Assembly: GCA_027061725.1 (NCBI GenBank)
Contig: JAMOVG010000244.1
Coordinates: forward strand, 1 to 36,291
Source of the DNA: Desulfobacteraceae bacterium
GTDB taxonomy: Bacteria > Desulfobacterota > Desulfobacteria > Desulfobacterales > JALSRD01
DNA length: 36,291 bases
Direction of reading: 5' to 3'
Below the pieces are notes generated by a model. It was not told the origin of the DNA and did no database searches. It saw only the letters and a list, made by a program, of their open reading frames with translations. Shown here one piece after another: positions 1-26,301 of the stretch (the first letter of the stretch is position 1; every line of letters starts with the position of its first letter). The translations under genes and the position numbers were made by a program.

Positions 1-564
1 GACGCTCCAGTCGCCCTCCCGCAGGGCGTTGGGCAGCTGGCGCAGGGTAAAGATGTCGATGGTCAGATTTTTGAGGCCGTAATCCCTTTCCAGGCCGCGG
101 CAGACCCTTTCAAAGTCGGCGGTGGGCTCTTCGAAGGTTGGCGCATCGACTTCCACGTAGTAGGTGCGCACCGCAGGATTGTGCTCGATGTGGATGTCCC
201 GGGCCGCCTTGCTGACCACCTGCTTTCCGGCCCTGGATTCCTCGGGAACGAATACCAGGATATCGCCCTGCACCTTGGCGACACAGCCCAGCCGGAATCC
301 CTTCTGTTTGCGCTCTTCGTTGATGAACTTGTCTTCTTCTTCCTGCCATGGGCTGACGTGATCCATGCTGGACGTGATGCCGTACTTTTCGAAGTGTCCT
401 TCCTCGATGCGTACGATGCACTTGCCGCAGACCTTTTTCTCGCCGCACAGCGCTTCGATGTCCACTCCCAGCAGGCGGGAAGCTTCGATAATATTGATAC
501 CCCTGGGAACTTCCCCCCGTCGTCCGGAAGGTTGGAAAATCACCATCACTTTGTCTTCATCCAT
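1..564 (-). CDS. Corrinoid-activating ferredoxin/ASKHA protein (RACo-like), partial
   Basis: This is the N-terminal part (188 codons) of a protein that runs off the left edge. Residues 1-110 form a plant-type 2Fe-2S ferredoxin domain with cysteines at 40, 46, 49 and 94 (C-x5-C-x2-C...C). The segment after about residue 120 matches the linker before the ASKHA ATPase domain of corrinoid activators such as RACo. The known role of that family is ATP-dependent reductive reactivation of Co(II) corrinoid proteins that have been accidentally oxidised. The start is the ATG at 564-562, chosen because an AGGAGGG ribosome site lies a few bases before it. It is the last visible gene of the corrinoid methyltransferase run, directly after the corrinoid protein it would serve. 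The ATPase domain is outside the window, so an ordinary ferredoxin cannot be strictly excluded. Confidence 0.85.
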   Translation of the reverse strand, partial: MDEDKVMVIFQPSGRRGEVPRGINIIEASRLLGVDIEALCGEKKVCGKCIVRIEEGHFEKYGITSSMDHVSPWQEEEDKFINEERKQKGFRLGCVAKVQGDILVFVPEESRAGKQVVSKAARDIHIEHNPAVRTYYVEVDAPTFEEPTADFERVCRGLERDYGLKNLTIDIFTLRQLPNALREGDWSV

Positions 565-746: not shown

Positions 747-1418
747 CTACTGGCCTTCTTTGCTCTGCATCTTGCGCAGCCGGCTGATCATCTTGATGCC
801 TTCGGACACCGCGTTTCCAGCCGACTCGGCGTAGCCGTCGGCACCGAAAAGGTTGGCGACATCCTTGGTCACCGGGGCGCCGCCGAGCATGATGGCCACG
901 TTGGGGTTTTTCTCCTTGATCATGGCAATGACCTTCTTCATGCCCAGCATGGTGGTTGTCATCATGGCGGACATGGCCACCACTTCGGAGTCCGTGCGCA
1001 GCTGTTCCTCCACGAACTTTTCCAGGGGCACGTCGCGGCCGAGGTCGTGGACCTCCCATCCGGCCACGTCGAACATCATCTTGACGAGGTTTTTGCCGAT
1101 GTCGTGCACGTCACCCTGGATGCTGCCGATGACCACCTGGGCGTTGAGTCCGCCCTCCCGTTTGGGTACGTGGGGGCGCAGGATGTCCAGCCCGGCGTAC
1201 AGCGCATCGGCGCACATCAGTACCTCGGGTACGAAGTACTCCTGCTTGTCGTAAAGCTCACCCACCACTTCCATGCCGGCCGCAAGCCCGTCCATGATCA
1301 TTTCCAGCGCGTCAAAGCCGGCGTCCACCGCCTCCTGGGCGGCCTCCTTGACCTCGTCTTCCTCGTATTCGATCACACCGTTTTTCAGTTTCTCGAGCAG
1401 TTCTTCCTTGGATGCCAT
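747..1418 (-). CDS. Methyltransferase cognate corrinoid protein
   Basis: A 223-residue B12-binding protein of the MtbC/MttC/MtaC type. Residues 1-85 form the helical cap domain that covers the cobalamin, and residues 92-215 form the Rossmann-like cobalamin domain. The lower-ligand motif D-x-H-x-x-G is visible as D103, H105 and G108, so H105 should ligate cobalt (base-off/His-on). A conserved SAMMTTTM segment near 150 and LGGAPV near 178 also fit the family. It carries the methyl group between the two methyltransferases encoded just upstream. A 182-base gap separates it from the activase gene; it contains a short perfect hairpin at 731-745 just after the stop codon, without a T tract. The length is normal for the family. 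Confidence 0.93.
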   Translation of the reverse strand: MASKEELLEKLKNGVIEYEEDEVKEAAQEAVDAGFDALEMIMDGLAAGMEVVGELYDKQEYFVPEVLMCADALYAGLDILRPHVPKREGGLNAQVVIGSIQGDVHDIGKNLVKMMFDVAGWEVHDLGRDVPLEKFVEEQLRTDSEVVAMSAMMTTTMLGMKKVIAMIKEKNPNVAIMLGGAPVTKDVANLFGADGYAESAGNAVSEGIKMISRLRKMQSKEGQ

Positions 1419-1507: not shown

Positions 1508-2572
1508 TCAGAGCCTGCCCACGGCCGGGGTGGGTGTGCCGCCCATTTCCCTTACAGTGGCCACCATGGCCCGGAAATTTTCCTCCTTGATGTCCGGCCA
1601 CAGGTCGCATCCCGGCCAGATGGCATCGACGCCGGAGGTGATGTTTTCCTTGATGCCCTCGACGGCCTGCTCAACGGTGGTCTCTTCGGCGCAGGGAAGT
1701 TTGAAGACGTCAAAATACCCCAATACGATCACGTCGTCACCCACTTTCTTGCGGGTTTCGGGAATATTGTTTTTGACGTCAAAACTCAGGGCGTCGGCAC
1801 CGCACTCGTTCATCATTTCCACCAGCGGGTCGGTGGAGCCGCAGATGTGCAGCACCTTGGGGGAGTCCCAGGCGGCCAGGATCCTCGTCAGGCGGGGCTG
1901 GATGACCTGCTTGAAGGTGCGCGGGCTGAGCAGGTCGGCGGCCACCCCGGGTTCACGCAGCGTGATGTAGTCGGCGCCGGCGGCCCGCAGGGATTTGCCG
2001 ATCTCGATGATCATGTCCGTGAAGCGGTCGAGGATGGACGCCACCAGTTCCTTTTTCTTGAAGACACCCTTGAGGACCTGGTCCAGTTCAATGGTCTGGC
2101 CGCACTGGGTGAAAGGACCCAGCTGCCAGGCGCCCACCGGGTATTCCGGGGCTTCTTTCTTGATGATCTTGATGGCCTCGGGAATCAGCGGCATCCTGCC
2201 GCGGGTCATGATGTTTTCGATGTCGTCGTCGGTGATCTGGACGTCTTCCAGCACTTTCCACTTCTTTTCGGGAATGGTGGGGTAGAGGATGTCCTCCGAA
2301 TCCTCGTAGAGGCTGATGGTATTGCCCAGGGCCTCGGATTCCCAGCACATGTCGAAGGGCACCACGATGGAATCCAGGTCGAACATGCGGGCCGATTCGA
2401 TGGCCGACCGCGCCAGTTTCTCGGCGTCCACGTGCACCTGGGGGAATTTGTATCCCAGTTTCTTGATGGCCGGCATCAGCACCATGCCCATGCCGCTGAA
2501 AAAAGGCATGGTGTCAATGGGCTCGCGGTTGAAAAAGCGCAGGACTCGTTCCTTGGGTGTCAACTCTGCCAT
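1508..2572 (-). CDS. Uroporphyrinogen-decarboxylase-fold corrinoid methyltransferase
   Basis: A 354-residue protein of the MtaA/MtbA/CmuA branch of the URO-D superfamily. These enzymes bind zinc, activate a thiol, phenolate or methoxyl substrate and exchange a methyl group with a corrinoid protein. The zinc ligands are visible as H242-x-C244 and C322; the 78-residue spacing between the cysteines is close to that of MtbA. True haem-pathway URO-D lacks this set, so haem synthesis is unlikely. The start at 2572 was preferred to in-frame upstream codons because AAAGGAG precedes it and the family N-terminus (MAELTPKERVL) begins there. It lies between the MtrH-like gene and the corrinoid protein gene. 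By analogy with acetogen O-demethylases it may be the substrate-specific methyltransferase I, acting on a methoxyaromatic or methylamine-type donor. The substrate cannot be read from sequence. Confidence 0.85.
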   Translation of the reverse strand: MAELTPKERVLRFFNREPIDTMPFFSGMGMVLMPAIKKLGYKFPQVHVDAEKLARSAIESARMFDLDSIVVPFDMCWESEALGNTISLYEDSEDILYPTIPEKKWKVLEDVQITDDDIENIMTRGRMPLIPEAIKIIKKEAPEYPVGAWQLGPFTQCGQTIELDQVLKGVFKKKELVASILDRFTDMIIEIGKSLRAAGADYITLREPGVAADLLSPRTFKQVIQPRLTRILAAWDSPKVLHICGSTDPLVEMMNECGADALSFDVKNNIPETRKKVGDDVIVLGYFDVFKLPCAEETTVEQAVEGIKENITSGVDAIWPGCDLWPDIKEENFRAMVATVREMGGTPTPAVGRL

Positions 2573-2720
2573 GGCGAAAAACTCCTTTCTGAAGTCTGGT
2601 GACGGACCATGCCGCCCCCGGGTCTCCCCGGCCCGCCGTCCGCGGTTCCCGGTTTGCGCGAACGCGCCGGACGGCCGGTGGGGCAAATGCGTTGAAGCAG
2701 CGGGAACCAGCGCCCCCTCT

Positions 2721-3677
2721 TCAGCCCGCCAGTGTCTTGAGCTGCTCCACGAAGTCGGGAAACAGCTTGAACAGGGGGTGATTGGGGTCCTTGGGCAACT
2801 GCTTGGTTTCGGCGAAGACGGCGGTGGCCAGAAACGCTTCGGATTCGGCGACGGCCGGAAGAATGCGGGTCGCACCGGCCATGGGCCCTGAAAAGATCAT
2901 GTCATGGTACCAGAAGGCCGAAAGGGCTTCCAGCGCGGCGTCCGTGGACGACCAGCCCTTGAATCCCCACATGTCTTTAAAGCGCTTGAGATCCATGTAG
3001 GAACCGTTGCTGGGGGCGCTGGCCGCCGGGAAACCCCACTTTTCCTTGATCATGCGGTTGGCCACCCCGCAGAAAGCCGTCGCGGGCCCGTTCATCACCG
3101 AAGTGTCGACGAAGATGCTCTCGAACTCGGCGCCGGCTTTTTCGATGGCATCCAGCAGTTTCTGGGTGCCGCTGATGCGCCCCGAAGGCATCTGGTCTTC
3201 CTGGTCGAATGCCACCAGCAGGACGTGCTTGACGCCCATCTGGGAAATTTCACGAATTTCGGTCTCCAGGTCCTGCTCCCAGACGGTCAGGCTGTTGTAG
3301 AACATGCGGTCCAGCAGGCCCTTCTCGGCGCAGTAGGCCGCCCCCTCCAGTTTGGGCTTCATCACCCAGGCGTCGATGCAGAAGGGCATGTCGCTGACGG
3401 ACGTCACGAAATCAATGAAGCGCTTGAACTCTTCGCCGGTGTTGGCCACGATATCGGCCATGCCCGGAACGCCGGTTTCCTGGGACAGGCGGTCCTGTGT
3501 CTTGAGAAGCTCTTCGGCGCGCTTCTCGTTGAACCCCTCTTTGCGCTTGCCCTCGAAGACCCGATCACCTTTCTGAAAAATGGAACTGACGCAGACACAC
3601 GGGTATTCTCCGGGCTGACCGCCGAATTTGACCCCCCCGACTTCACATACCTTTTGCTCGGTTTCCAGTCGAAACAT
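2721..3677 (-). CDS. MtrH/MtgA-like methylcorrinoid:tetrahydrofolate methyltransferase
   Basis: A 318-residue protein that resembles subunit H of methyl-tetrahydromethanopterin:CoM methyltransferase. The N-terminus (FRLETEQKVCEVGGVKFGG) and the following GEYPCVCVSSIFQKGDR stretch are characteristic of this family, which has a TIM barrel that binds a methyl-pterin. Stand-alone bacterial members such as MtgA move methyl groups between a corrinoid protein and tetrahydrofolate, so this is the likely methyltransferase II of the locus. The start at 3677 follows a GAGGAGGG ribosome site; a longer in-frame reading to 3809 has no ribosome site and no family similarity. It is the first gene of the metabolic part of the run, 236 bases downstream of the response regulator gene. 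Confidence 0.85.
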   Translation of the reverse strand: MFRLETEQKVCEVGGVKFGGQPGEYPCVCVSSIFQKGDRVFEGKRKEGFNEKRAEELLKTQDRLSQETGVPGMADIVANTGEEFKRFIDFVTSVSDMPFCIDAWVMKPKLEGAAYCAEKGLLDRMFYNSLTVWEQDLETEIREISQMGVKHVLLVAFDQEDQMPSGRISGTQKLLDAIEKAGAEFESIFVDTSVMNGPATAFCGVANRMIKEKWGFPAASAPSNGSYMDLKRFKDMWGFKGWSSTDAALEALSAFWYHDMIFSGPMAGATRILPAVAESEAFLATAVFAETKQLPKDPNHPLFKLFPDFVEQLKTLAG

Positions 3678-3913
3678 CGTTCCCTCCTCTCTTGAAGTAA
3701 AAACCGGTATCGATTCCCCCCTTTTACGCGCCAATCGGAAACATCCGGAAACACCGCCTCCAGCCAAGCGGAATAGTAGCGGAGCCAAAACGGTTTGAAT
3801 ATCGTCCAAAGGATGATTTGCAGGGTCGGGTCAGTTGATTTTTGCAGGGGCCAGTGGTTGGTTGCGGGCCCGCTGGAGGCCGTGGCGGCGGGTGAATCGT
3901 TGCGTCGGGGAGA
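3678..3913 (-). promoter_or_regulatory. Upstream region of methyltransferase genes with 10-bp-phased repeat
   Basis: This 236-base gap separates the response regulator stop from the MtrH-like start. It holds two copies of CGGAAACA at 3736-3743 and 3746-3753, a direct repeat with a period of exactly 10 bases (one helical turn), 60-75 bases before the start codon. This spacing would suit side-by-side binding of a regulator such as the adjacent NarL-type protein. I found no convincing sigma-70 or sigma-54 promoter by eye, so an independent promoter here is only inferred. Confidence 0.35.
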
Positions 3914-9190: not shown

Positions 9191-10171
9191 CTAGCAGCAC
9201 TTGTAGAGGCGCAGCAGGCGTTCGTCCATGACGAAGTAGAATTTCATGAAGGAAGATCCGTCGAAACGTGTGCGAACGCCGTGGAGGGTGTTGGCCAGGT
9301 CGATGGTGCTGCGCAGGTGGGTAATCATGATGAGCTGTTTTTCGCCGCCCACGTCCTTGAGAAAAGCCTGCATGGATTTGTGGTTGATGTAATCCAGCGC
9401 CGGCTCCACCTCGTCAAGCAGGTAAAAGGGGCTTTGCAGCCGGCTGAAAAGCGCCAGTTTCAGTGCCAGGCTGGTGACCGATTTTTCGCCGCCGGACAGC
9501 TGATGGACACGGCGCACCCGGTTGCCGGGCAGGGTGGTTTGAATGTCGAAGCGCCGTCCGCCGTTTTCGCCGTGAAGGTCGAAGCGAACTTCGGCCAGGG
9601 GCATCAGGTAGGACATGTAGCGCCGGAAAAGGGGGAAAACTTCTTCCATGAGGCACCCCTCGGGGGCCGGCCCCGCGGTTTCGCCCAGAAGCTCCCGAAT
9701 CATCTCGAAACGTGCCCCGGGATCGGAGAGCAGGATGTCGTTGATGTGCTCTTGGCGAATGATGGTCTGCAGGGCCTGACCCAGGCCCAGTTCCGCCAGG
9801 CGTCGGCGCAAGGCCGCGCGGTCGAGGGGTTTCCCCTGGAAGACGAATCGGTTCGTGCCCTGCCGGTCCATCTCGCGGGTGATCTGAAATACCGGGGCCT
9901 CCCGGCGGTCTTCGGATTTGAAGTTGAGTTCCACCCGGATGACCTCGGCCGGCGGGTAGGCGTCGCTGCCCGCAAAGAACAGCTCGCGGGGCTCATAACA
10001 GCGGATGCGCTCCAGGTCGTCTTCCCCGAGGGCCCAGACGATGGCATCCAGGATGTTGGACTTGCCAACGCCGTTGTTGCCGATGATGACACCGATGCCG
10101 GGCTGAAAGGCCATCTCGGTTTTTTCGGAAAAAGACTTGAATCCTTCGATGTTGACATCCTCGAGAAACAT
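9191..10171 (-). CDS. Short SMC/Rad50-type ATPase without coiled coil
   Basis: A 326-residue ABC-type head ATPase. The N-terminus MFLEDVNIEGFKSF is SMC-like. Walker A GNNGVGKS lies at 31-38, a Q-loop-like region at about 138-150, signature LSGGEKS near 224-230, and Walker B FYLLDEVEPALD near 248-259 followed by a D-loop and a switch histidine (MITHL). In normal SMC proteins a coiled coil of hundreds of residues separates the two halves; here fewer than 60 residues connect them, so it is essentially a bare head. It may dimerise on ATP and act on DNA or a protein partner. The start at 10171 comes just after the stop of the UGA-containing gene, with AAGGAG before it; the ATG at 10186 is an alternative. 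It ends the TSCPD/thioredoxin/SMC operon. Confidence 0.8.
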   Translation of the reverse strand: MFLEDVNIEGFKSFSEKTEMAFQPGIGVIIGNNGVGKSNILDAIVWALGEDDLERIRCYEPRELFFAGSDAYPPAEVIRVELNFKSEDRREAPVFQITREMDRQGTNRFVFQGKPLDRAALRRRLAELGLGQALQTIIRQEHINDILLSDPGARFEMIRELLGETAGPAPEGCLMEEVFPLFRRYMSYLMPLAEVRFDLHGENGGRRFDIQTTLPGNRVRRVHQLSGGEKSVTSLALKLALFSRLQSPFYLLDEVEPALDYINHKSMQAFLKDVGGEKQLIMITHLRSTIDLANTLHGVRTRFDGSSFMKFYFVMDERLLRLYKCC

Positions 10172-10172
10172 G

Positions 10173-10469
10173 TCACTCCTTCGCATTTTTTTCCCGGTGG
10201 CGTCGTCGAATTTCGGCGATGAGTTCCTCCTGCATGGGGATCAGGGCTTCGTACACCAGGTCCCCGTCCAGGGCCACGGAGGGCAGTGACCGGGCCTTCA
10301 GCTCGCGGAAACGCTGGACCCCCTCGCGGGTTCGCATGTCCCATTCATGGACATCGATGAGCTGCTGTATGTCTTTCGGTAACACCTTTACCGATTCTGC
10401 CATGTAGACACACGCCACTCACTGGTTGAAATCGGTGAGCAGCACATCCACCACCACGGGCTCGTCCAT
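10173..10469 (-). CDS. Thioredoxin-like selenoprotein (UxxC, in-frame UGA)
   Basis: A 98-residue small redox protein read through an in-frame TGA at 10421-10419, codon 17. The N-terminal 16 residues (PVVVDVLLTDFNQ after the start) form the first beta strand of a thioredoxin fold. The TGA is followed by V-A-C, giving the redox motif U17-V-A-C20. The C-terminal half has a beta strand, helix and the cis-proline segment LPSVALDG near residue 69, then EALIPMQEELI. Without readthrough, the 81-residue downstream frame would lack the first strand and the active-site nucleophile and would have no ribosome site at its GTG. The ATG at 10469 has AAAGGAG six bases before it and lies 17 bases after the TSCPD gene. 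A 7-bp hairpin follows the TGA at a SECIS-like distance. A misread or a cysteine codon mutation is the alternative. Confidence 0.78.
10376..10394 (-). promoter_or_regulatory. Candidate bacterial SECIS hairpin
   Basis: On the coding (minus) strand a perfect 7-base-pair stem TCGGTAA / TTACCGA encloses the loop AGGTG. The stem begins 24 bases after the TGA and the loop about 31 bases after it, within the usual distance for bacterial selenocysteine insertion elements. The loop is G-rich, as SelB-recognised loops tend to be. It lies inside the coding sequence, as expected in bacteria. I did not fold competing structures. Confidence 0.55.
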
Positions 10470-10486
10470 GGTCGGCTCCTTTCTGT

Positions 10487-11428
10487 TCAATCTGCGTTTT
10501 CGACGGAGAAGTCGATTTTGTCGCCGGCCGCCCGGAGAAGGCCCCAGGCGGTCCGCCCCCCGTCGAGGGCGGGGCCTGTGCCGATAAAGTGCCGCCCGCC
10601 GACCTGCCGGTGGATCCACTGGCGGCTCTGGCTGAACACGATGACATCGGCCTCGAATTGGGGCGTCATGGCCGCAAGAGCCGGCAGGACGTTTTCATCG
10701 CGCATGAAATCCGTCAGTCCGCATACCATGTTCATTTCCAGGGCGAAAGGTTCGAAGTCGGAGTAGCCCGGCAATTGCTGGAGATACGCCCCAAAAAAGG
10801 CGACACCGCATCGGTCCCCGATCGTGAAGCGAAGCACTTGGGGCATCTGGGCCAGCCGGTCGCGGTCCCGGGGCGGCATGCTCGGCTGGGCCCCGTTGCC
10901 CGCCTGACAGGCACAGCGCCAGTCCCGTTCCCCCAGAACGGCGAAGATGCCGTGCCGGTGAATCGTTCTGACGAGTTCCCGGCAGGACGATCTGCCGTCG
11001 GTGAGATTGCCGAGGCAATACAGCGCTTGCACGCCCCTGCGACCGGCGGCCGCAATGATTCTTTCCAGGGCGGCGATGTCCCCGCCGAGTTCACCGATCA
11101 GGGCTACGGCGCTGCGGGGCGCCTCGTCGCATGCCAGGCGAAAGGAGTCCGCCGGCGCGAGCCCGCCGTCCATGGCCCGGGTGAGCGCCTCGGAGAGTTG
11201 GCGGGGACAGGAGGTGCCGTCGCGGCATTCGATGCCGTCGAGCAGCGGCAGAATATCCCGGACGGGGCGGCCGCGGATCAAGCGGCAGACCAGTTCGGCG
11301 TTTCCGGGGCACCCGCCGCCTACGAACCGTACGGCGTGCAGACAGCTTCCCTCGATGCTGAAGTGGATTTCCGGGGGGCACACGCCCCGGGTCCGGTAGA
11401 TGAAACGTTTCCTCTCTTGCTGGGCCAT
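10487..11428 (-). CDS. TSCPD domain fused to degenerate metallophosphoesterase
   Basis: A protein of about 313 residues. The first 80 residues are a TSCPD domain: TRGVCPPEIHFSIEG, GGGCPGN and the diagnostic GTSCPRQL are all present, with cysteines at the conserved places. Such domains occur alone or at the end of B12-dependent ribonucleotide reductases. Residues 95-310 follow the layout of YfcE/calcineurin-like phosphoesterases (ALIGELGG, YCLGNLTDG, VLGERD), but the metal ligands are lost: the usual DxH, GD, GNHD and GHTH motifs have become ELGG, GN, GERD and a non-histidine segment. It is therefore probably a pseudo-enzyme with a binding role. It starts the operon with the UGA-containing thioredoxin gene and the short SMC gene. 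The ATG at 11428 has GGGGG six bases before; the ATG at 11434 is also possible. Confidence 0.72.
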   Translation of the reverse strand: MAQQERKRFIYRTRGVCPPEIHFSIEGSCLHAVRFVGGGCPGNAELVCRLIRGRPVRDILPLLDGIECRDGTSCPRQLSEALTRAMDGGLAPADSFRLACDEAPRSAVALIGELGGDIAALERIIAAAGRRGVQALYCLGNLTDGRSSCRELVRTIHRHGIFAVLGERDWRCACQAGNGAQPSMPPRDRDRLAQMPQVLRFTIGDRCGVAFFGAYLQQLPGYSDFEPFALEMNMVCGLTDFMRDENVLPALAAMTPQFEADVIVFSQSRQWIHRQVGGRHFIGTGPALDGGRTAWGLLRAAGDKIDFSVENAD

Positions 11429-11592
11429 GTGCATCCCCCGACCACGAAATCGGTGATGACGGCGGCTGCCGTCCTCCGTCGGCCCCCTGTTTTAGGTCCG
11501 GCCAGTACAATATAACAAACAGCCGTCCGGTTGAATCGTCCCGGGGTTGATTTTTCGTCCGGATGGGGATGGTTTTGGCAAGAGGGAGATGA

Positions 11593-18700: not shown

Positions 18701-20545
18701 ATGGCCGACAACAAGTTCCTCAGTCCCCACGAAGTAGAGACCATTCCCGGCACCGAAGGCTGGGAGCGCATGTACCCCTACCACTACCGCTTCAGCACCG
18801 ACGACCCCGAACGGCGCAAGTACGAAGAGAACATGTTCTGGTTCAACGACGCCCTGCACTACCCGGAACCCATGTATCCCTTTGACATCATATGGGACGA
18901 GGCCTGGTTCCTTGCCCTTTCGCAGTACAACACGCGCATCTTTATGGTTCCCCCCGCCCTAGGCGTCGACCACCGCATCATCAACGGCAATGTCTACATC
19001 ACGCCGGTCCCGGTGACCGACCCCAAGGAAGTGGAAAACCGCATCCCGCTGTTCATGGAGCGCGCCGGCTATTACTACCAGAACTGGGACAAGCTCACCG
19101 GGCAGTGGGAAGAGAAGATGAAAAAGATCATCTCCGAGCTCAAACAGATCGAGATCAAGCCCCTGCCGGAGATAGAGGACATGTCGGTGGTCACTGAGGG
19201 CGCGGGCACCTCCAGCGGATATCATCTGCTGAAAGACTACGACCGGCTCATCGACCTGGGCATCCTGTGCTGGCAGTACCACTTCGAATTCCTGAACCTT
19301 GGCTACGCCGCCTACGTTACCTTCGTGGATTTCTGTACCAAGGCCTTCCCGGACATTCCCCTGCAGCGCATCACCCAGATGGTGGGCGGCATCGATGTCA
19401 TCATGTACCAGCCCGACGAGGAGCTGAAAAAACTGGCCAAGCTGGCCATCGAGCTGAAAGTGGATGGTGAAATCGGCACCGACGCCGATATCGACGAAGT
19501 GGTCCGTCGCCTGAGCAAGTCGGAAAACGGGCGCAAGTGGCTGGAGGCTTGGGACAACGCCAAGGACCCCTGGTTCTACGTCTCCACCGGCACCGGCTGG
19601 TATCACCATGACCTGAGCTGGAACGACGACCTGAACGTACCCCTGAACTCCATGCGCATTTACATCGAAAAGCTCCAGCAGGGCCTGTCCATCGACCGCC
19701 CGCTGGAGCGCATCCAGGCCGAGCGCGAGGAGATCACCCGCGAGTACCGGGCGCTGCTCAAGACCGACGAAGACCGCCAGACCTTCGATCAGCTGCAGGG
19801 CACCGCCAAGCTGGTCTTTCCGTACGTGGAGAACCACCTTTTTTACGTGGAGCACTGGTTTCACTCCATCTTCTGGAACAAGATGCGTGACGTGGCCCGT
19901 ATCATGAAAGACCACGGCTTTATCGCGGAGGTGGAGGACATCTGGTTCCTTAACCGCAGCGAGATCAAGGACGCCCTGTGGGACCTGGTGACCAGTTGGG
20001 CCACCGGCACCAAGGGCTACGGGCCGCTGCACTGGCCACCCGAGATCGCCTGGCGCAAGGGTGTCTACGAGAAATTCAAGCAGTGGACTCCCCCGCCGGC
20101 CGTGGGAACGCCGCCCGAGACCATCGCCGAGCCGTTCACCATCGTGCTTTGGGGCATCACCAACGAGTCCATGGCGGCCTGGGCCAAGCTGCGCGAGATC
20201 GGCGACCCGGACAAGGTCACCGAGCTCACCGGCTTCGCCGGTTCGCCGGGCGTGGCGGAGGGCGTGGCGCGCGTGTGCCGTTCGGTGGACGACATCAACA
20301 AGCTGGCCGACGGCGAGATCCTGGTGGCGCCCACTACCTCTCCCTCCTGGGCGCCGGCCTTTCAGAAGATCAAGGCCTGCGTCACAGACGTGGGCGGTAT
20401 CATGTGCCATGCGGCCATCGTTTGCCGCGAGTACGGCATGCCCGCCGTAGTGGGCACCGGCCAGGCCACCACCATTCTGCAGACCGGCATGAAGATCCGC
20501 GTGGACGGCGACACTGGAAAGATCACGCTCCTGGACCGGGTATAG
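18701..20545 (+). CDS. ppsA: Phenylphosphate synthase subunit A (phosphohistidine subunit)
   Basis: A 614-residue homologue of the central part of PEP synthase, as in Thauera phenylphosphate synthase subunit 1. The swivelling phosphohistidine domain is at the C-terminus (GFAGSPGVAEGVARV, then GGIMCHAAIVCREYGMP); the phosphoacceptor would be H570, essentially the position (569) described for the Thauera subunit. The rest, about 1-480, is the domain specific to this family, which holds the phenol side. The enzyme uses ATP to phosphorylate phenol to phenylphosphate, releasing AMP and phosphate, as the first step of anaerobic phenol degradation. AGGAGGAGG precedes the ATG. It is first in the operon, 12 bases before ppsB. 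Other PEP-utilising enzymes acting on related hydroxyaromatics cannot be excluded. Confidence 0.85.
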   Translation: MADNKFLSPHEVETIPGTEGWERMYPYHYRFSTDDPERRKYEENMFWFNDALHYPEPMYPFDIIWDEAWFLALSQYNTRIFMVPPALGVDHRIINGNVYITPVPVTDPKEVENRIPLFMERAGYYYQNWDKLTGQWEEKMKKIISELKQIEIKPLPEIEDMSVVTEGAGTSSGYHLLKDYDRLIDLGILCWQYHFEFLNLGYAAYVTFVDFCTKAFPDIPLQRITQMVGGIDVIMYQPDEELKKLAKLAIELKVDGEIGTDADIDEVVRRLSKSENGRKWLEAWDNAKDPWFYVSTGTGWYHHDLSWNDDLNVPLNSMRIYIEKLQQGLSIDRPLERIQAEREEITREYRALLKTDEDRQTFDQLQGTAKLVFPYVENHLFYVEHWFHSIFWNKMRDVARIMKDHGFIAEVEDIWFLNRSEIKDALWDLVTSWATGTKGYGPLHWPPEIAWRKGVYEKFKQWTPPPAVGTPPETIAEPFTIVLWGITNESMAAWAKLREIGDPDKVTELTGFAGSPGVAEGVARVCRSVDDINKLADGEILVAPTTSPSWAPAFQKIKACVTDVGGIMCHAAIVCREYGMPAVVGTGQATTILQTGMKIRVDGDTGKITLLDRV

Positions 20546-20557
20546 CGAGGAGGCATC

Positions 20558-21640
20558 GTGAAAGATCGCAAGCAATACGTACGCTGGTTCCAGGAGTGCG
20601 ACCTTGAGTCCATCCCCCTGGTAGGGGGCAAGAACGCCAGCCTGGGCGAACTGCTCAAAGCCGGCATCCCCGTACCGCCCGGTTTCGCGGTGACCACGGA
20701 GGCCTACCAGCGGTTCCTGGATGAGGGCGGTATCCGGCAGGAGATCATCCGCATCGCCGGCACGGTGCGCCCCGATGACACCGACACCGGCGAGGAGGCC
20801 AGCCGGCGCATCCGTGCCCTCATCGAGTCCACGCCTGTCAGCTTAGACATCGAGGACTACATCGGCGAGTTCTACCGGCGGCTGTCCAAGCGCAGCCGGG
20901 TGCCGGCGGTGCCGGCCGCGGTGCGCTCCAGCGCCACGGCCGAGGACCTGCCCGGCGCCAGCTTCGCCGGTCAGCAGGACACCTTTCTGTGGATCCGCGG
21001 CATGGACGACATCCTGGCCCATGTGCGCAGATGCTGGTCGAGCCTGTTCACGCCGCGGGCCATGGCCTACCGGGCCAAGATGGGTTTCGACCACGAAAAG
21101 GTGGCCATTTCGGTGGGCATCCAGAAAATGGTCAACTCCTGGACCGCGGGTGTCATGTTCACCTTGAACCCGTCCAGCGGCGATACCTCCACCATCGTCA
21201 TCGATGCCAACTGGGGCTTCGGCGAGAGCGTGGTTTCCGGCGAGTGCACGCCGGATCACTTCGTGGTCGACAAGGTGACCATGGAAATTACCAAACGCAC
21301 CATCTCGGCCAAGGAGTGCCTGTACACCGTCAACCCCGAAACCCATGCCGTGGAGCGCCACGAGATCCCCGAGGAGCGGCGCACCAACCAGTGCATCATC
21401 GACGATGACGTGGTCGCGCTGGCGCGCATCGGCAAGCTTATTGAGAAGCACTACGGCAAGCCCATGGACATCGAGTGGGCCATTGACAAGGATCTGCCGG
21501 CCGCCGGCCGGGTGATGATCCTTCAGAGCCGTCCGGAGACCGTGTGGAGCACCAAAAAGGTCGAGCCGGTGTGCAAGCCGCGCAAATCGGCCCTGGAGCA
21601 CATCGTGGCGGGCCTGGTGGCCGGCAAGAAGATTACCTGA
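20558..21640 (+). CDS. ppsB: Phenylphosphate synthase subunit B (ATP-binding subunit)
   Basis: A 360-residue protein equivalent to the N-terminal ATP-grasp half of PEP synthase/PPDK. Visible motifs are GGKNASLGELLKAGIPVPPGFAVT at the start, AVRSSATAEDLPGASFAGQ near 125-143, NWGFGESVVSGECTPD near 222-237 and DIEWAID...ILQSRPETVW near the end. It would bind ATP and phosphorylate the histidine of the A subunit. The start is a GTG with GAGGAGG before it. The split into separate A and B genes matches known phenylphosphate synthases and differs from one-piece PEP synthase. The length is similar to the 40-kDa Thauera subunit. Confidence 0.88.
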   Translation: MKDRKQYVRWFQECDLESIPLVGGKNASLGELLKAGIPVPPGFAVTTEAYQRFLDEGGIRQEIIRIAGTVRPDDTDTGEEASRRIRALIESTPVSLDIEDYIGEFYRRLSKRSRVPAVPAAVRSSATAEDLPGASFAGQQDTFLWIRGMDDILAHVRRCWSSLFTPRAMAYRAKMGFDHEKVAISVGIQKMVNSWTAGVMFTLNPSSGDTSTIVIDANWGFGESVVSGECTPDHFVVDKVTMEITKRTISAKECLYTVNPETHAVERHEIPEERRTNQCIIDDDVVALARIGKLIEKHYGKPMDIEWAIDKDLPAAGRVMILQSRPETVWSTKKVEPVCKPRKSALEHIVAGLVAGKKIT

Positions 21641-21689
21641 ACCTCCAAACCTGACATCTGATACCTTAAATAACGAAAGGAGCCACTAC

Positions 21690-23096
21690 ATGAAGGACAT
21701 GCGGGATTTTGTGGCGGTCTGCGAAGAGAAGGGACTGCTGAAACGGATCAAGGCCGAGGTGGATTGGAACCTGGAGCTTTCCCACATCGCCAAGCTCAAT
21801 GAGGAGCAGAGCGGTCCGGCGCTGCTGTTTGAAAACGTCAAGGGCTATGACACTCCGGTGATCACCAGTGTGTGCACCACGGTCGAACGGCTGGCGGTGA
21901 TCATGGGCCAGCCCGAGGACTCCAGCCTGGGAGACCTTTACGAGGCCTGGGCCAAGCTGGGCGAGAACCTGCTGCCGCCCAAGGAGATCGATCCCGCCGA
22001 CGCCCCCTGCAAGCAGAACAAGATGATGGGCGACGAGGTGGACCTGTTCAAGTTTCCGGTTCCCAAGTACTACCCCATGGACGGCGGGCGTTTCTACGGC
22101 ACGGCCCACTTCATTATCACCAAAGACCCTGACAGCGGCTGGATCAACCTGGGCACCTACCGTAGCCAGCTGCTGGGCAAGGACAAGATCGGCACCCAGT
22201 TCATCAAAGGCAAGCACGCCGACATCATGCTCAAGAAGTACCAGGCCATGGGCAAGCCCATGCCGGTGGCCTCCATCGTGGGTTGCGACCCGCTGCTGTT
22301 CATCCTGGGAGCGGCGCGGGTATCGGCCTTCGTTTCCGAGTACGACGTGGCCGGCGCCTTGCGCGGAGAACCTGTGGAGGTGGTGCGCGGCGAGACCGTA
22401 GACCTGCCGATTCCGGCCCACGCCGAGATCGTGGTGGAGGGCGAGGTGGACGCCGAGAAGTTCATGGACGAGGGCCCCTTCGGCGAGTACACCGGCTACT
22501 ACTCGGGCGTGGGTACCGATCCGCGCAATTTTATCGACGTAAAATGCGTGACCTACCGCGACAACCCCATCTTCTGGGGCACCACCGTGGGCCGCGCCGT
22601 GACCGACACCCACATGACCATGGCGCTTTCCTACGGCGCCAACCTGTGGCAGCAGCTGCTGGCCATGAAGATCCCGGGCTTGAAGGGCGTCTACTGCCCG
22701 CCCGAGGGCTCGGGTCGTTTTCTGGCCATCATCTCGGTCAAGCAGATGTACCCCGGTCACGTGGACCAGGTGCTCACGGCCGCCATCTCCACCGAGATGG
22801 GCGCTTACGGGCTCAAGACAGTTATCGTGGTGGACGACGACATCGACCCCTGGGACATCCCGCGGGTGATGTACGCCCTGAGCTTCCGCTTCCAGCCCAA
22901 TCGCTGCCAGATCATCAAGCGCGGCCGCTCCACGCCGCTGGACCCGTCGCTGCCCATCAACGCCCGCGAGATCACCGGGCGGCTGCTGATGGACGCGACC
23001 ATTCCCTACGAATGGAAGGAAAAGCCGATTCCCATCGAACTGGACCCCGAGGTGGTAAAACGGGTCAAGTCGCGCTGGTCCGAGCTGGGATTGTAG
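21690..23096 (+). CDS. UbiD-family decarboxylase, phenylphosphate carboxylase-like
   Basis: A 468-residue UbiD-fold enzyme that uses prenylated FMN. The conserved EGPFGEYTGYYS segment (about 264-275), the MGAYGLKTVIVVDDDIDPW region and the surrounding Arg/Glu-rich core are all present. In Thauera the UbiD-like alpha and beta subunits carboxylate phenylphosphate to 4-hydroxybenzoate; here a single UbiD gene directly follows ppsAB, so it is the likely carboxylase. AAAGGAG precedes the ATG. Its cofactor would come from the UbiX downstream, with an LpdD-like chaperone. There is no second UbiD, gamma subunit or delta phosphatase in the window, so they are either elsewhere or not needed. A reversible 4-hydroxybenzoate or catechol-type decarboxylase is the alternative. 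Confidence 0.85.
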   Translation: MKDMRDFVAVCEEKGLLKRIKAEVDWNLELSHIAKLNEEQSGPALLFENVKGYDTPVITSVCTTVERLAVIMGQPEDSSLGDLYEAWAKLGENLLPPKEIDPADAPCKQNKMMGDEVDLFKFPVPKYYPMDGGRFYGTAHFIITKDPDSGWINLGTYRSQLLGKDKIGTQFIKGKHADIMLKKYQAMGKPMPVASIVGCDPLLFILGAARVSAFVSEYDVAGALRGEPVEVVRGETVDLPIPAHAEIVVEGEVDAEKFMDEGPFGEYTGYYSGVGTDPRNFIDVKCVTYRDNPIFWGTTVGRAVTDTHMTMALSYGANLWQQLLAMKIPGLKGVYCPPEGSGRFLAIISVKQMYPGHVDQVLTAAISTEMGAYGLKTVIVVDDDIDPWDIPRVMYALSFRFQPNRCQIIKRGRSTPLDPSLPINAREITGRLLMDATIPYEWKEKPIPIELDPEVVKRVKSRWSELGL

Positions 23097-23121
23097 CCGG
23101 CGGGGAAAGCAAAAGGGATAA

Positions 23122-23241
23122 ATGCGACGAGGCACAAAGAAAGAAGCCGGGCGCCTTTGGCAGTAGGTCGCCAAAGGCGCGCCGGGCATGTTTCTCTGGC
23201 GCCCCGGATGTACATCGGAGCGAAGGCCAAAGACGCCCGGC
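23122..23241 (+). promoter_or_regulatory. Structured intra-operon leader with short peptide and alternative hairpins
   Basis: In the 251-base gap between the UbiD and Tm-1-like genes, arm I (23146-23161, GCCGGGCGCCTTTGGC) can pair with arm II (10 bp, 23152-23161 with 23170-23179) or with arm III (23226-23241), 15 of 16 positions. The two pairings exclude each other. A 14-codon frame (23122-23166, MRRGTKKEAGRLWQ, AAGGG before its ATG) ends within the first loop, so ribosomes on it would cover arm I. This resembles an attenuator or mRNA-processing switch, but no T tract follows arm II, so transcription termination is not shown. Confidence 0.4.
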
Positions 23242-23347
23242 GCGGGGTTGCGGGAACTTATCGGGAAAGGACTTGGCACAAAGCAATGGAGGGGGAGATT
23301 GCTTGATATCCTCTCCGGAAAATAATCCCACAGACGAAAAAGACGCT

Positions 23348-24598
23348 ATGGAAAAGAAAAAGACGATACTGATCATCGCCAACCTGGACACCCGCGGCGC
23401 CGAGTTCAAGATGGTCAAGGAACTCATCGAGTCGCGGGGGCACGACGCCATCCTGCTGGATTTTTCCATGGAACAGGAGCCCTTCTTCGAAGGCGACATC
23501 ACCTGCGAGGAGGTGGCCGAGGCCGGCGGCCTGAAGATCGACGAGGTGCGCCGACTCTACCGCCAGGAGCGCCAGAAGGCCACTGACAACCAGGTGCGCG
23601 GCGCCCGCAGGATCGTGCGTCGGCTCTTCGAGGAGGGCCGCATCCACGGCGTGCTGGGCGTGGGCGGGGGCACCTCCTCGCTGGTGTCCACCAGCATCAT
23701 GCAGTCCATGCCCTTCGGCATGCCCAAGCTGATGGCCTCCTCCATGGCCGGACATCCCAAGTACGTGGGCAAGTACGTGGGCACCAAGGACATCACCATG
23801 TTAAACACGGTGGTGGACGTGGTGGAGCTCAACCCCATCTTAAAGACCCAGCTGATCAATGCCGTGGGGGCCATCTGCGGTATGGTGGAGATGTCGCCGG
23901 GCTGGAAAGTGCAGTTTGACAAACCCGTGGTGGCCATCACTTCCTTCGGTTTCGCCGAACGCGCCGTAGAGCCCGCCATCCACTACCTGCGCGACCGCGG
24001 CTACATCCCGGTGCCCTGCCATGCACAGGGGCGCGGTGACCGGGCCATGGATGAACTCATCCGTGACGGGTGGTTTTCGGGGGTCATCGACATCGTTTCC
24101 CGCGGCGTCGGCGAGACCCTGCTGGGGGGCAACTGCGCCGCCGGCGACGATCGCCTGCTGGCCGCCGCCGAGAGCGGCATTCCGCAGGTGGTGGCGCCCT
24201 CGGGGCTGGATATGCTCAGCGTTGGGGGCAATGCGACCCTGCTGGAGAAGTACAAGGACCGCCCCCAGGCGGTGATCGACAAGCTGCGCATCGAGGTGCG
24301 CACCAGCGCCGAGGAGGTGGCGCAGATGGCCCGCATCGTGGCTGAGCGCCTCAACCGCAGCCAGGCGCCCTGCGCCGTGCTGATTCCCCTCAAGGGCTGG
24401 AGCTCCCTGGACAAGGAGGGGCGGCCGCTCTACGACCCGGAGGCCGACCGGGTTTTTGCCGAGGTCCTGAAAAAAGAGCTCAAGGCAGGAATCCCGGTGG
24501 AGGAGGTCGATCTGCACCTCAACACACCGGAGTTCGGCCGAGAAGCCGTGGCGCTGTTTGACCGGCTTTACACGCAAATGAAGGAATCGTCGTCATGA
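23348..24598 (+). CDS. Tm-1-like ATP-binding (UPF0261) protein
   Basis: A 416-residue protein of the UPF0261/Tm-1 N-terminal family. The start KKKTILIIANLDTRGAEF and the GVLGVGGGTSSLVSTSIM and VVAPSGLDMLSVGG segments are typical of its two Rossmann-like domains; glycine-rich loops suggest nucleotide binding. The plant Tm-1 protein binds ATP and blocks viral replication, but the bacterial role is unknown. I use the ATG at 23348, where family similarity begins; an in-frame TTG at 23303 has a stronger ribosome site (GGAGGGGGAG) and could add 15 residues. It overlaps the next gene by four bases (ATGA). Its place between the UbiD gene and the ppsC-like gene implies a part in phenol activation, carboxylation or cofactor handling that is not yet described. 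Confidence 0.85.
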   Translation: MEKKKTILIIANLDTRGAEFKMVKELIESRGHDAILLDFSMEQEPFFEGDITCEEVAEAGGLKIDEVRRLYRQERQKATDNQVRGARRIVRRLFEEGRIHGVLGVGGGTSSLVSTSIMQSMPFGMPKLMASSMAGHPKYVGKYVGTKDITMLNTVVDVVELNPILKTQLINAVGAICGMVEMSPGWKVQFDKPVVAITSFGFAERAVEPAIHYLRDRGYIPVPCHAQGRGDRAMDELIRDGWFSGVIDIVSRGVGETLLGGNCAAGDDRLLAAAESGIPQVVAPSGLDMLSVGGNATLLEKYKDRPQAVIDKLRIEVRTSAEEVAQMARIVAERLNRSQAPCAVLIPLKGWSSLDKEGRPLYDPEADRVFAEVLKKELKAGIPVEEVDLHLNTPEFGREAVALFDRLYTQMKESSS

Positions 24599-25242
24599 TC
24601 ATCAGAAACTGGATGCGCAAGGATCCCGTCACCATTCACAGCGACATGCTGGCCAGCGAGGCGCTGGGTGTTTTCGAAAGCTGCGGACAGCCCTTCATCC
24701 CCGTGGTGGACGACGGCCGCCTGCGGGGCATCCTGGCCCGCCGCGACCTGCGCGAGGCGGCCTCCTGCGTGACGGCCGCCGAGAGCATCCATGAACTCAA
24801 CTATTTCAACACCCGCCTGAAGGTCAAGGACCTGATGGTGCGCAAACCCGAGACCCTGTCGGTCAACGACACCGTGGAGACCGCCCTGGCCAAGGGCAGG
24901 AAGTTCGGACGCAGCTTCTTCCCCATTTTGGACGGCGACCAGCTTACGGGAACGGTGTCGTATCTGGACATCTTCGACTCGCTCTACCAGATCCTGGGCG
25001 AGGAGGACCTCGCCAGCTTGTCTCTGGAATGCGGACAGCAGGGCGGCGAGCGCATGGCCGCCGAAGTGGTGCGGGCGGTTGACGAAACCGGCGGGACCCT
25101 GTACAGCCTGTTCAGACTCAAGGATCCCGAAACCGGCGTCCGCCGCCTGATCGTGCGCTTCCGATCGGCAGACCCCGAAGCCGTGGTGGCCGCCATCCGG
25201 GAAAAAGGGTACCAGATCATCGAGCGTGTGGCCACCCAGTGA
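24595..25242 (+). CDS. ppsC: CBS-domain protein, phenylphosphate synthase subunit C-like
   Basis: A 215-residue protein with two CBS domains (about 1-60 and 75-135: NWMRKDPVTIHSDMLASEAL, then VKDLMVRKPETLSVNDTV) and an ACT-like C-terminal domain (about 150-215: GGTLYSLFRLKDPETGVRRL). In Thauera the third subunit of phenylphosphate synthase is a CBS protein of about 24 kDa that stimulates the activity several-fold, and this matches in size and domain type. CBS pairs usually bind adenine nucleotides, so it may set activity by energy charge. The start and stop codons overlap those of both neighbours by four bases. Here it is separated from ppsAB by two genes, which is unlike the usual order. Confidence 0.75.
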   Translation: MIIRNWMRKDPVTIHSDMLASEALGVFESCGQPFIPVVDDGRLRGILARRDLREAASCVTAAESIHELNYFNTRLKVKDLMVRKPETLSVNDTVETALAKGRKFGRSFFPILDGDQLTGTVSYLDIFDSLYQILGEEDLASLSLECGQQGGERMAAEVVRAVDETGGTLYSLFRLKDPETGVRRLIVRFRSADPEAVVAAIREKGYQIIERVATQ

Positions 25243-25652
25243 AGCAGGACACCTTTACCGTTGAGACACACACGGGAAACCGTGACCTGACGGCCGTCGT
25301 CCGGCGCATCGGCGACGACGTGCTGGTAGCCGTATGGGGCGGTGAACGGCCGCACATCGGTGCCGTGGCCGCGGCCCAGCCGCGGCCCAGCCTGAAGGAT
25401 CCGGCCAGGCGGAGCGCGTCGGCCTCGGTGTTGTGCTACGTGGGACACAAGGAAGATCTGCTGGCCCGCGAGATCGCGCTGGCCGTGGCGTCCCGGGTCA
25501 ATGCCGCCGCGGTGGTGACCGCCGGTATCCACTGGGACAACCTGGACCAGGACGGCATCGACCAGGTGGTGCGAAACAGCCGCCTGCTGCTGAATTCGAT
25601 ACTGGAACGACTGGCGGACGGGGATCACCCCGAAAGCCTCAGCGAGAAGTGA
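25239..25652 (+). CDS. LpdD-like prenylated-FMN chaperone
   Basis: A 137-residue protein that resembles the small LpdD subunit found with UbiD-type gallate decarboxylases. The features I recognise are VWGGERPHIGAVAAAQPRPS, the GHKEDLLARE segment and the AGIHWDNL motif near residue 90-97. Its known relatives are thought to help load prenylated FMN into UbiD enzymes. The start is a GTG that overlaps the ppsC-like stop (GTGA). UbiX follows 16 bases later, so the order LpdD-UbiX next to a UbiD gene supports the assignment. It takes the place where Thauera phenol clusters have a small carboxylase gamma subunit; whether the two are equivalent is unclear. Confidence 0.7.
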   Translation: MKQDTFTVETHTGNRDLTAVVRRIGDDVLVAVWGGERPHIGAVAAAQPRPSLKDPARRSASASVLCYVGHKEDLLAREIALAVASRVNAAAVVTAGIHWDNLDQDGIDQVVRNSRLLLNSILERLADGDHPESLSEK

Positions 25653-25668
25653 AAGGGAAGGGGATTTC

Positions 25669-26301
25669 ATGCCCAGAAGAATCGTCATCGGCATCTCCGG
25701 CGCCAGCGGCGTGACATACGGGGTGCGCATTCTCCACCTGCTGCAGGAGAGCAACTACGAGACCCACCTGATCATCTCCAGGGCGGGCAAGCTGAACATT
25801 GAAATCGAGACGCCTTACACCGCCGGCCAGGTGGCCGCCATGGCCGACCGCGTCTACGACGACGCCGACATGGCCGCCGCGGTTTCCTCGGGTTCCTTCC
25901 TCACCGAGGGCATGATCGTGGCGCCGTGCACCATCAAGTCGCTGTCGGGCATCGCCAACTCCTACAACACCAACCTGCTGGTGCGGGCGGCCGACGTGAC
26001 CCTCAAGGAGAAGCGCAAGCTGGTGTTGGTGGTGCGCGAGACCCCGCTGCACAAGGGGCACCTGCGCCTGATGAGCCTGGCGGCCGACATGGGCGCCCAC
26101 ATCCTGCCGCCGATCCCCTCTTTTTACCACCAGCCCAAGACCATCGGCGATATCGTGGACCAGACCATCGGCAAGATCTTCGACTACATGGGCATCCGGC
26201 ACTCGCTTTTCCGGCGCTGGGGGGAGCAGCCGGAAGAAGACGAGCCGCGCAGTGCTATTGGTGCCGCCGTGGCCGGAAGCCACCGGGGAGGCGTACAATG
26301 A
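25669..26301 (+). CDS. ubiX: UbiX-family flavin prenyltransferase
   Basis: A 210-residue flavoprotein. The N-terminus RIVIGISGASGVTYGVRIL is the FMN-binding signature. The VAPCTIKSLSGIANSYNTNLLVRAADV segment and the RETPLHKGHLRLM segment are the prenyl-phosphate and active-site regions. It joins dimethylallyl (phosphate) to FMN to make prenylated FMN, the cofactor of the UbiD enzyme in the same operon. AAGGGAAGGGG stands before the ATG. Its stop overlaps the ligase start. About 20 extra C-terminal residues are polar and poorly conserved. Confidence 0.93.
   Translation: MPRRIVIGISGASGVTYGVRILHLLQESNYETHLIISRAGKLNIEIETPYTAGQVAAMADRVYDDADMAAAVSSGSFLTEGMIVAPCTIKSLSGIANSYNTNLLVRAADVTLKEKRKLVLVVRETPLHKGHLRLMSLAADMGAHILPPIPSFYHQPKTIGDIVDQTIGKIFDYMGIRHSLFRRWGEQPEEDEPRSAIGAAVAGSHRGGVQ

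Follow-up and report, generated by a model that had tools for sequence, protein, structure and literature searches.

The minus strand of the window (the whole 36,291-nt stretch of DNA analysed, from a Desulfobacteraceae bacterium) carries a gene for a small thioredoxin-like protein in which the in-frame UGA at codon 17 is almost certainly decoded as selenocysteine (Sec), as judged by comparison with homologues. The reading frame runs from an ATG at 10469 through the TGA (10421-10419) to a stop at 10175-10173. Translation with the TGA read as U gives MDEPVVVDVLLTDFNQUVACVYMAESVKVLPKDI...REKNAKE, 98 residues with a single internal TGA. The first-pass annotation had described this otherwise uninterrupted frame correctly, without stating its strand, and its good ribosome site is the AAGGAG found 6 nt before the ATG. 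A reading of 10173-10469 on the plus strand was rejected, as no gene is there. The features of the gene are as follows.

10173..10469, minus strand: thioredoxin-like selenoprotein gene, 98 codons including Sec17, with the UVAC motif and a terminal TGA
10419..10421, minus strand: putative Sec codon TGA (codon 17), TGA in 38/38 distinct homologues and Cys in the sister CAAC paralogue
10476..10481, minus strand: ribosome-binding site AAGGAG, 6 nt ahead of the ATG
10376..10394, minus strand: candidate SECIS hairpin TCGGTAA-AGGTG-TTACCGA, 7 bp with a 5-nt loop, TGA-to-loop distance 31 nt

Relatives were searched with the 98-residue read-through, and the family alignment was then run against a class sample (389 genomes) and a phylum sample (395 genomes). 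The UVAC gene was found in 40 of the 389 class-sample genomes and in 3 more of the phylum sample, ~43 genomes that all belong to one phylum and span many genera. The named matches were metagenome-assembled genomes labelled Desulfobacterales, Desulfobacteraceae, Desulfohalobiaceae, Desulfobulbus, and Deltaproteobacteria, and an Olavius symbiont. The gene was absent from the same-genus genome and is thus accessory. Three other copies were also seen. G007:C667 (L025) is a damaged-looking second copy with TGG changed to TGA at the conserved Trp, and G093:C113 (L026) is a damaged-looking second copy that lacks residues 1-21 and with them the active site. G597:C153 (L110), a distant member of the family, has two in-frame TGA codons and lacks the usual hairpin.

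The TGA was located at codon 17 in every one of the 38 distinct full-length homologues, a pattern far beyond chance, and no Cys form of the family was found among these sequences. Relatives with Cys at this position, which had been proposed as a sign of Sec, were instead found in the sister CAAC paralogue, where each copy has TGC or TGT at the aligned position (VQCAACGYM versus NQUVACVYM). The 16 residues before the TGA are conserved as protein (VDVLLTDFxQ) while their synonymous sites are free; 43% of pairwise codon comparisons in this part were synonymous versus 15% with amino-acid changes, which is the mark of a translated region.

If the TGA were a true stop, only the 81-residue GTG open reading frame (or a product of the internal ATG, M23) would be made, and the 16 upstream codons would be a chance or relic leader. 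Such an 81-amino-acid frame (10418-10173) is indeed the only output of a standard open reading frame caller here, as the first-pass annotation had anticipated, and the assembly lacks selB (see below). However, the codon after the TGA encodes V, I, L, T, or A and is GTG in just 5 of the 38 homologues, and the upstream strand, which translation from this GTG would leave out, is kept in all of them. The shorter product would also lack strand 1 of the predicted fold as well as its active-site residue, in line with the earlier description of the fragment as lacking the active site. Conservation therefore refutes a start after the TGA, and we regard a true stop as very improbable. The chance that an ancestral TGC or TGT was turned into TGA by pseudogene decay or sequencing error is negligible; a single draft genome taken alone might allow it, as might the extra TGA and the truncation in the second copies of G007 and G093, but it is refuted by the same TGA across many genera, the protein constraint on both sides, and the conserved RNA hairpin.

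The perfect 7-bp hairpin that had been reported to begin 24 bases downstream does begin at the 25th base after the TGA and spans nt 25-43. PMC13188914 gives the limits of a bacterial SECIS (bSECIS) as a loop of 3-9 nt, a stem of 4-16 bp, a UGA-to-loop distance of 16-37 nt, a G in the first two loop positions, and a minimum free energy of -7.5 kcal/mol or lower. The hairpin falls within these limits (7 bp, loop AGGUG, 31 nt), with -13.9 kcal/mol for the fold of the TGA plus 45 nt, so that the bSECIS check suggested for the bases after the TGA turned out in its favor. An Rfam scan of 10300-10500 gave no match. An automated bSECIS scan was passed by 38/38 homologues but is permissive, and the real evidence is the contrast at synonymous sites. 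Normalized synonymous entropy was 0.27 over codons 7-14 after the TGA, compared with 0.77 upstream and 0.85 over codons 15-32, and it was 0.71 at the same codons of the Cys-containing CAAC paralogue. The frozen codons over the hairpin include GTA (38/38), TCG (34/34 of Ser), and TTA (36/38), and the top A-U pair is replaced by G-C in three homologues. These alignments strongly support a synonymous freeze that falls exactly over the bSECIS-fitting hairpin and only in the TGA family.

We also searched the genome for the Sec machinery, whose absence had been named as evidence against a selenoprotein. A tRNA-Sec (76 bits; ARAGORN anticodon TCA), selA (621 bits), and selD (363 bits, with its own in-frame TGA of the Sec type) were detected, which bears out most of the machinery. 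However, selB was not found in the 410-contig draft assembly with the TIGR00475 and PF09107 profiles or with same-genus DNA as the query; the candidates proved to be other translation factors (EF-Tu, LepA, and TypA by sequence) and tRNA-like matches. A selB at 357-387 bits was present in the same-genus genome and in each of the eight tested relatives that carry the UVAC gene. Because the whole same-genus stretch around selB likewise has a counterpart in this assembly limited to tRNA-like pieces, the missing selB points to an assembly gap, short of proof.

The protein was predicted by AlphaFold2 to adopt a thioredoxin fold (pLDDT 88.7) with a strand at residues 5-11 followed by a helix at 18-28, and the top PDB matches in a Foldseek search of the predicted structure were thioredoxins (E 1.6e-4, TM 0.64). 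This order would place residue 17 at the usual attacking position. The prediction thus supports a protein made of one thioredoxin-fold domain, with Sec-Val-Ala-Cys as the active site where helix 1 begins, and it agrees with the earlier description of a thioredoxin-like remainder, with strand 5-11 ahead of Sec17. In the modeled fold and its UxxC logic, the protein resembles selenocysteine thioredoxin (PF00085, UxxC). Unlike that protein, it lies below every Pfam thioredoxin cut-off, the best model being Thioredoxin_3 (PF13192) at 13 versus 24.8 bits. A PDB search with the protein sequence gave nothing useful.

The sole informative NCBIfam match was HUIPC_Trx_selen (NF047660; 43.4 bits versus a cut-off of 105, E 2.8e-11), the HUIPC motif thioredoxin-like (seleno)protein that PMC13188914 includes and attributes to Haft and Tolstoy 2025. 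Both are small thioredoxin-like UxxC proteins with a C/UxxCxYM pattern, and both are encoded in the same gene cluster of this genome. These likenesses would fit a UVAC protein that simply belongs to the known HUIPC family as a form with Sec, which we nevertheless consider quite improbable. A score of 43 bits where the curated cut-off is 105 indicates a separate family, and its motif is QUVAC, not HUIPC or HCxPC. Sec was present in all UVAC copies found, whereas the HUIPC-type group in this set mixes Sec and Cys. In addition, a true HUIPC gene is present in the same genome: the second selenoprotein gene at G000:C246:28289-28555 (L048) scores above the NF047660 cut-off, and its relatives mix Sec and Cys. 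In a tree of the thioredoxin-like proteins of the cluster, UVAC formed its own clade, sister to CAAC and apart from HUIPC and CLPC, with moderate support (90/90) on few columns.

The CAAC paralogue (G000:C246:31786-32052) shares 40-47% identity with UVAC and was detected in 38 of the 40 UVAC class-sample genomes. It differs from UVAC in having Cys for Sec and in the absence of the hairpin constraint, and no curated family name was found for it. On these sequence comparisons, UVAC is best described as a family of its own in which only Sec has been seen so far, with the CAAC family of the same cluster as its sister. The claim of a new selenoprotein holds insofar as the curated models of Pfam and NCBIfam leave it uncovered, but HUIPC (NF047660), a related Sec family, has already been described. 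Among the entries of the PMC13188914 family table that were compared, none matched its motif. Thioredoxin-like proteins with Sec are known as a kind, and searches of Pfam and NCBIfam returned no model of the UVAC family.

The host is an uncultured relative of sulfate-reducers, and the genes of the cluster are those of vitamin-B12-dependent methyl transfer. The neighbors of the selenoprotein gene in the window include the following.

10487..11434, minus strand: TSCPD-domain protein of 315 aa, upstream partner (PF12637, 54 bits), ending 17 nt before the selenoprotein start
9191..10171, minus strand: SMC/RecF-like ATPase, downstream partner (PF02463, 158 bits)
2721..3809, minus strand: MtrH/MtgA-like methyltransferase (NF002142, 288 bits; PF02007, 164 bits)
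1508..2875, minus strand: MtaA/CmuA-type (URO-D) methyltransferase (TIGR01463/NF004889; PF01208, 187 bits)
747..1418, minus strand: corrinoid protein (TIGR02370, 208 bits) with B12-binding domains
1..273, minus strand: N-terminus of a RACo-type corrinoid activator, continuing into contig C246

Positions 1-295 of the window overlap the end of contig C246 (G000:C246:35735-36029; L070:15736-16030) with 98.3% identity over 295 bp, indicating that the window runs on into C246 with the remaining corrinoid and thioredoxin-like genes. From the operon onward, the window part encodes V4R-like, histidine kinase, response regulator, MtrH-like and MtaA-type methyltransferase, and corrinoid proteins. The C246 part encodes RACo, DUF2284, a second MtaA-type enzyme, CAAC, an ArsE-type thioredoxin, CobW, a thioredoxin reductase (TrxR)-like protein, the HUIPC selenoprotein, and CLPC. 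The corrinoid methyltransferase cluster extends over ~30 kb and holds four thioredoxin-like genes besides UVAC (CAAC, ArsE-type, HUIPC, and CLPC). Its layout recurs in G066, G079, G084, G088, and G093 and partly in G054, and UVAC is linked across families to the corrinoid protein, MtaA, MtrH-like, RACo, CobW, and TrxR-like genes. Two more distant genomes encode a URO-D/MtaA-type methyltransferase whose C-terminus is the CAAC domain, with CobW adjoining (L116:1492-2841 and L115:1191-2555). Elsewhere in the window, at 18701-26301, genes for PEP-utilizer domain, PPDK_N, UbiD, CBS, and flavoprotein products stand in a row; we take them to resemble the phenylphosphate synthase/carboxylase set of anaerobic phenol degradation.

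From the gene neighborhood and the fusion of the CAAC paralogue, rather than from the UVAC protein itself, we infer with roughly even chances that the selenoprotein acts as a partner to the corrinoid methyltransferase system, in redox reactions or in the handling of thiols or selenols. The hairpin would direct insertion of Sec at UGA codon 17, and the product may act as a Sec/Cys dithiol-type redox carrier. The Sec17 selenolate would attack a disulfide, a selenenylsulfide, or an oxidized thiol, Cys20 would resolve the intermediate, and the flavin TrxR-like protein of the cluster may reduce the UVAC protein again. In this scheme the protein would serve the adjoining corrinoid-dependent MtaA-type system; its task would probably be to maintain a methyl acceptor or donor, a thiol or selenol, in the reduced state or to present it. 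Homologous MtaA-type enzymes of other anaerobes use methyl-sulfur or methyl-selenium compounds (PMC10418091), and by analogy a reduced selenol or thiol partner is plausible.

The immediate partners of the gene, the TSCPD protein and the SMC-like ATPase, have no obvious methyl-transfer role, and the selenoprotein might instead serve these two in some process that has nothing to do with corrinoid methyl transfer. The order TSCPD - UVAC - SMC-like ATPase is kept with tight spacing in most relatives; here the gaps are 17 nt and 1 nt, the ATPase starting 1 nt past the selenoprotein stop or at a same-frame ATG at 10186. On the other hand, UVAC adjoins methyltransferase and thioredoxin-like genes in G054 and G093, where no TSCPD gene was detected, and G054 also lacks the SMC gene. 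We consider service to the operon partners possible but rather unlikely. A literature search joining TSCPD, the SMC-family ATPase, and a selenoprotein found no paper. It is improbable that the Sec17 selenolate is itself the methyl acceptor or carrier, with the MtaA-type enzyme moving methyl groups between the corrinoid protein and protein-bound Sec as Se-methyl-Sec; if so, a small thioredoxin-fold protein would stand in the role that coenzyme M has in methanogens.

For the partnership with corrinoid methyl transfer, the closest described comparison is with the type 1 mlp gene clusters of Kountz and Balskus (PMC10418091), which are corrinoid methyl-sulfur/methyl-selenide systems. Both combine MtaA-type homologues with a corrinoid protein and a reductive activator in Sec-using anaerobes, a likeness based on MtaA/URO-D, corrinoid-protein, and RACo family matches only. 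That paper mentions thioredoxin once and does not mention Desulfo-, CobW, or DUF2284.

These results add a selenoprotein family without a Pfam or NCBIfam model, whose members are cut short by start-to-stop gene callers. In each full UVAC copy found, selenium appears to be fixed, not optional. The family would link selenium redox chemistry to an uncharacterized corrinoid methyl-transfer cluster of uncultured Desulfobacterota, and with five thioredoxin-like proteins, two of them with Sec here, encoded beside MtaA-type methyltransferases, the role of selenium in this cluster is directly testable.
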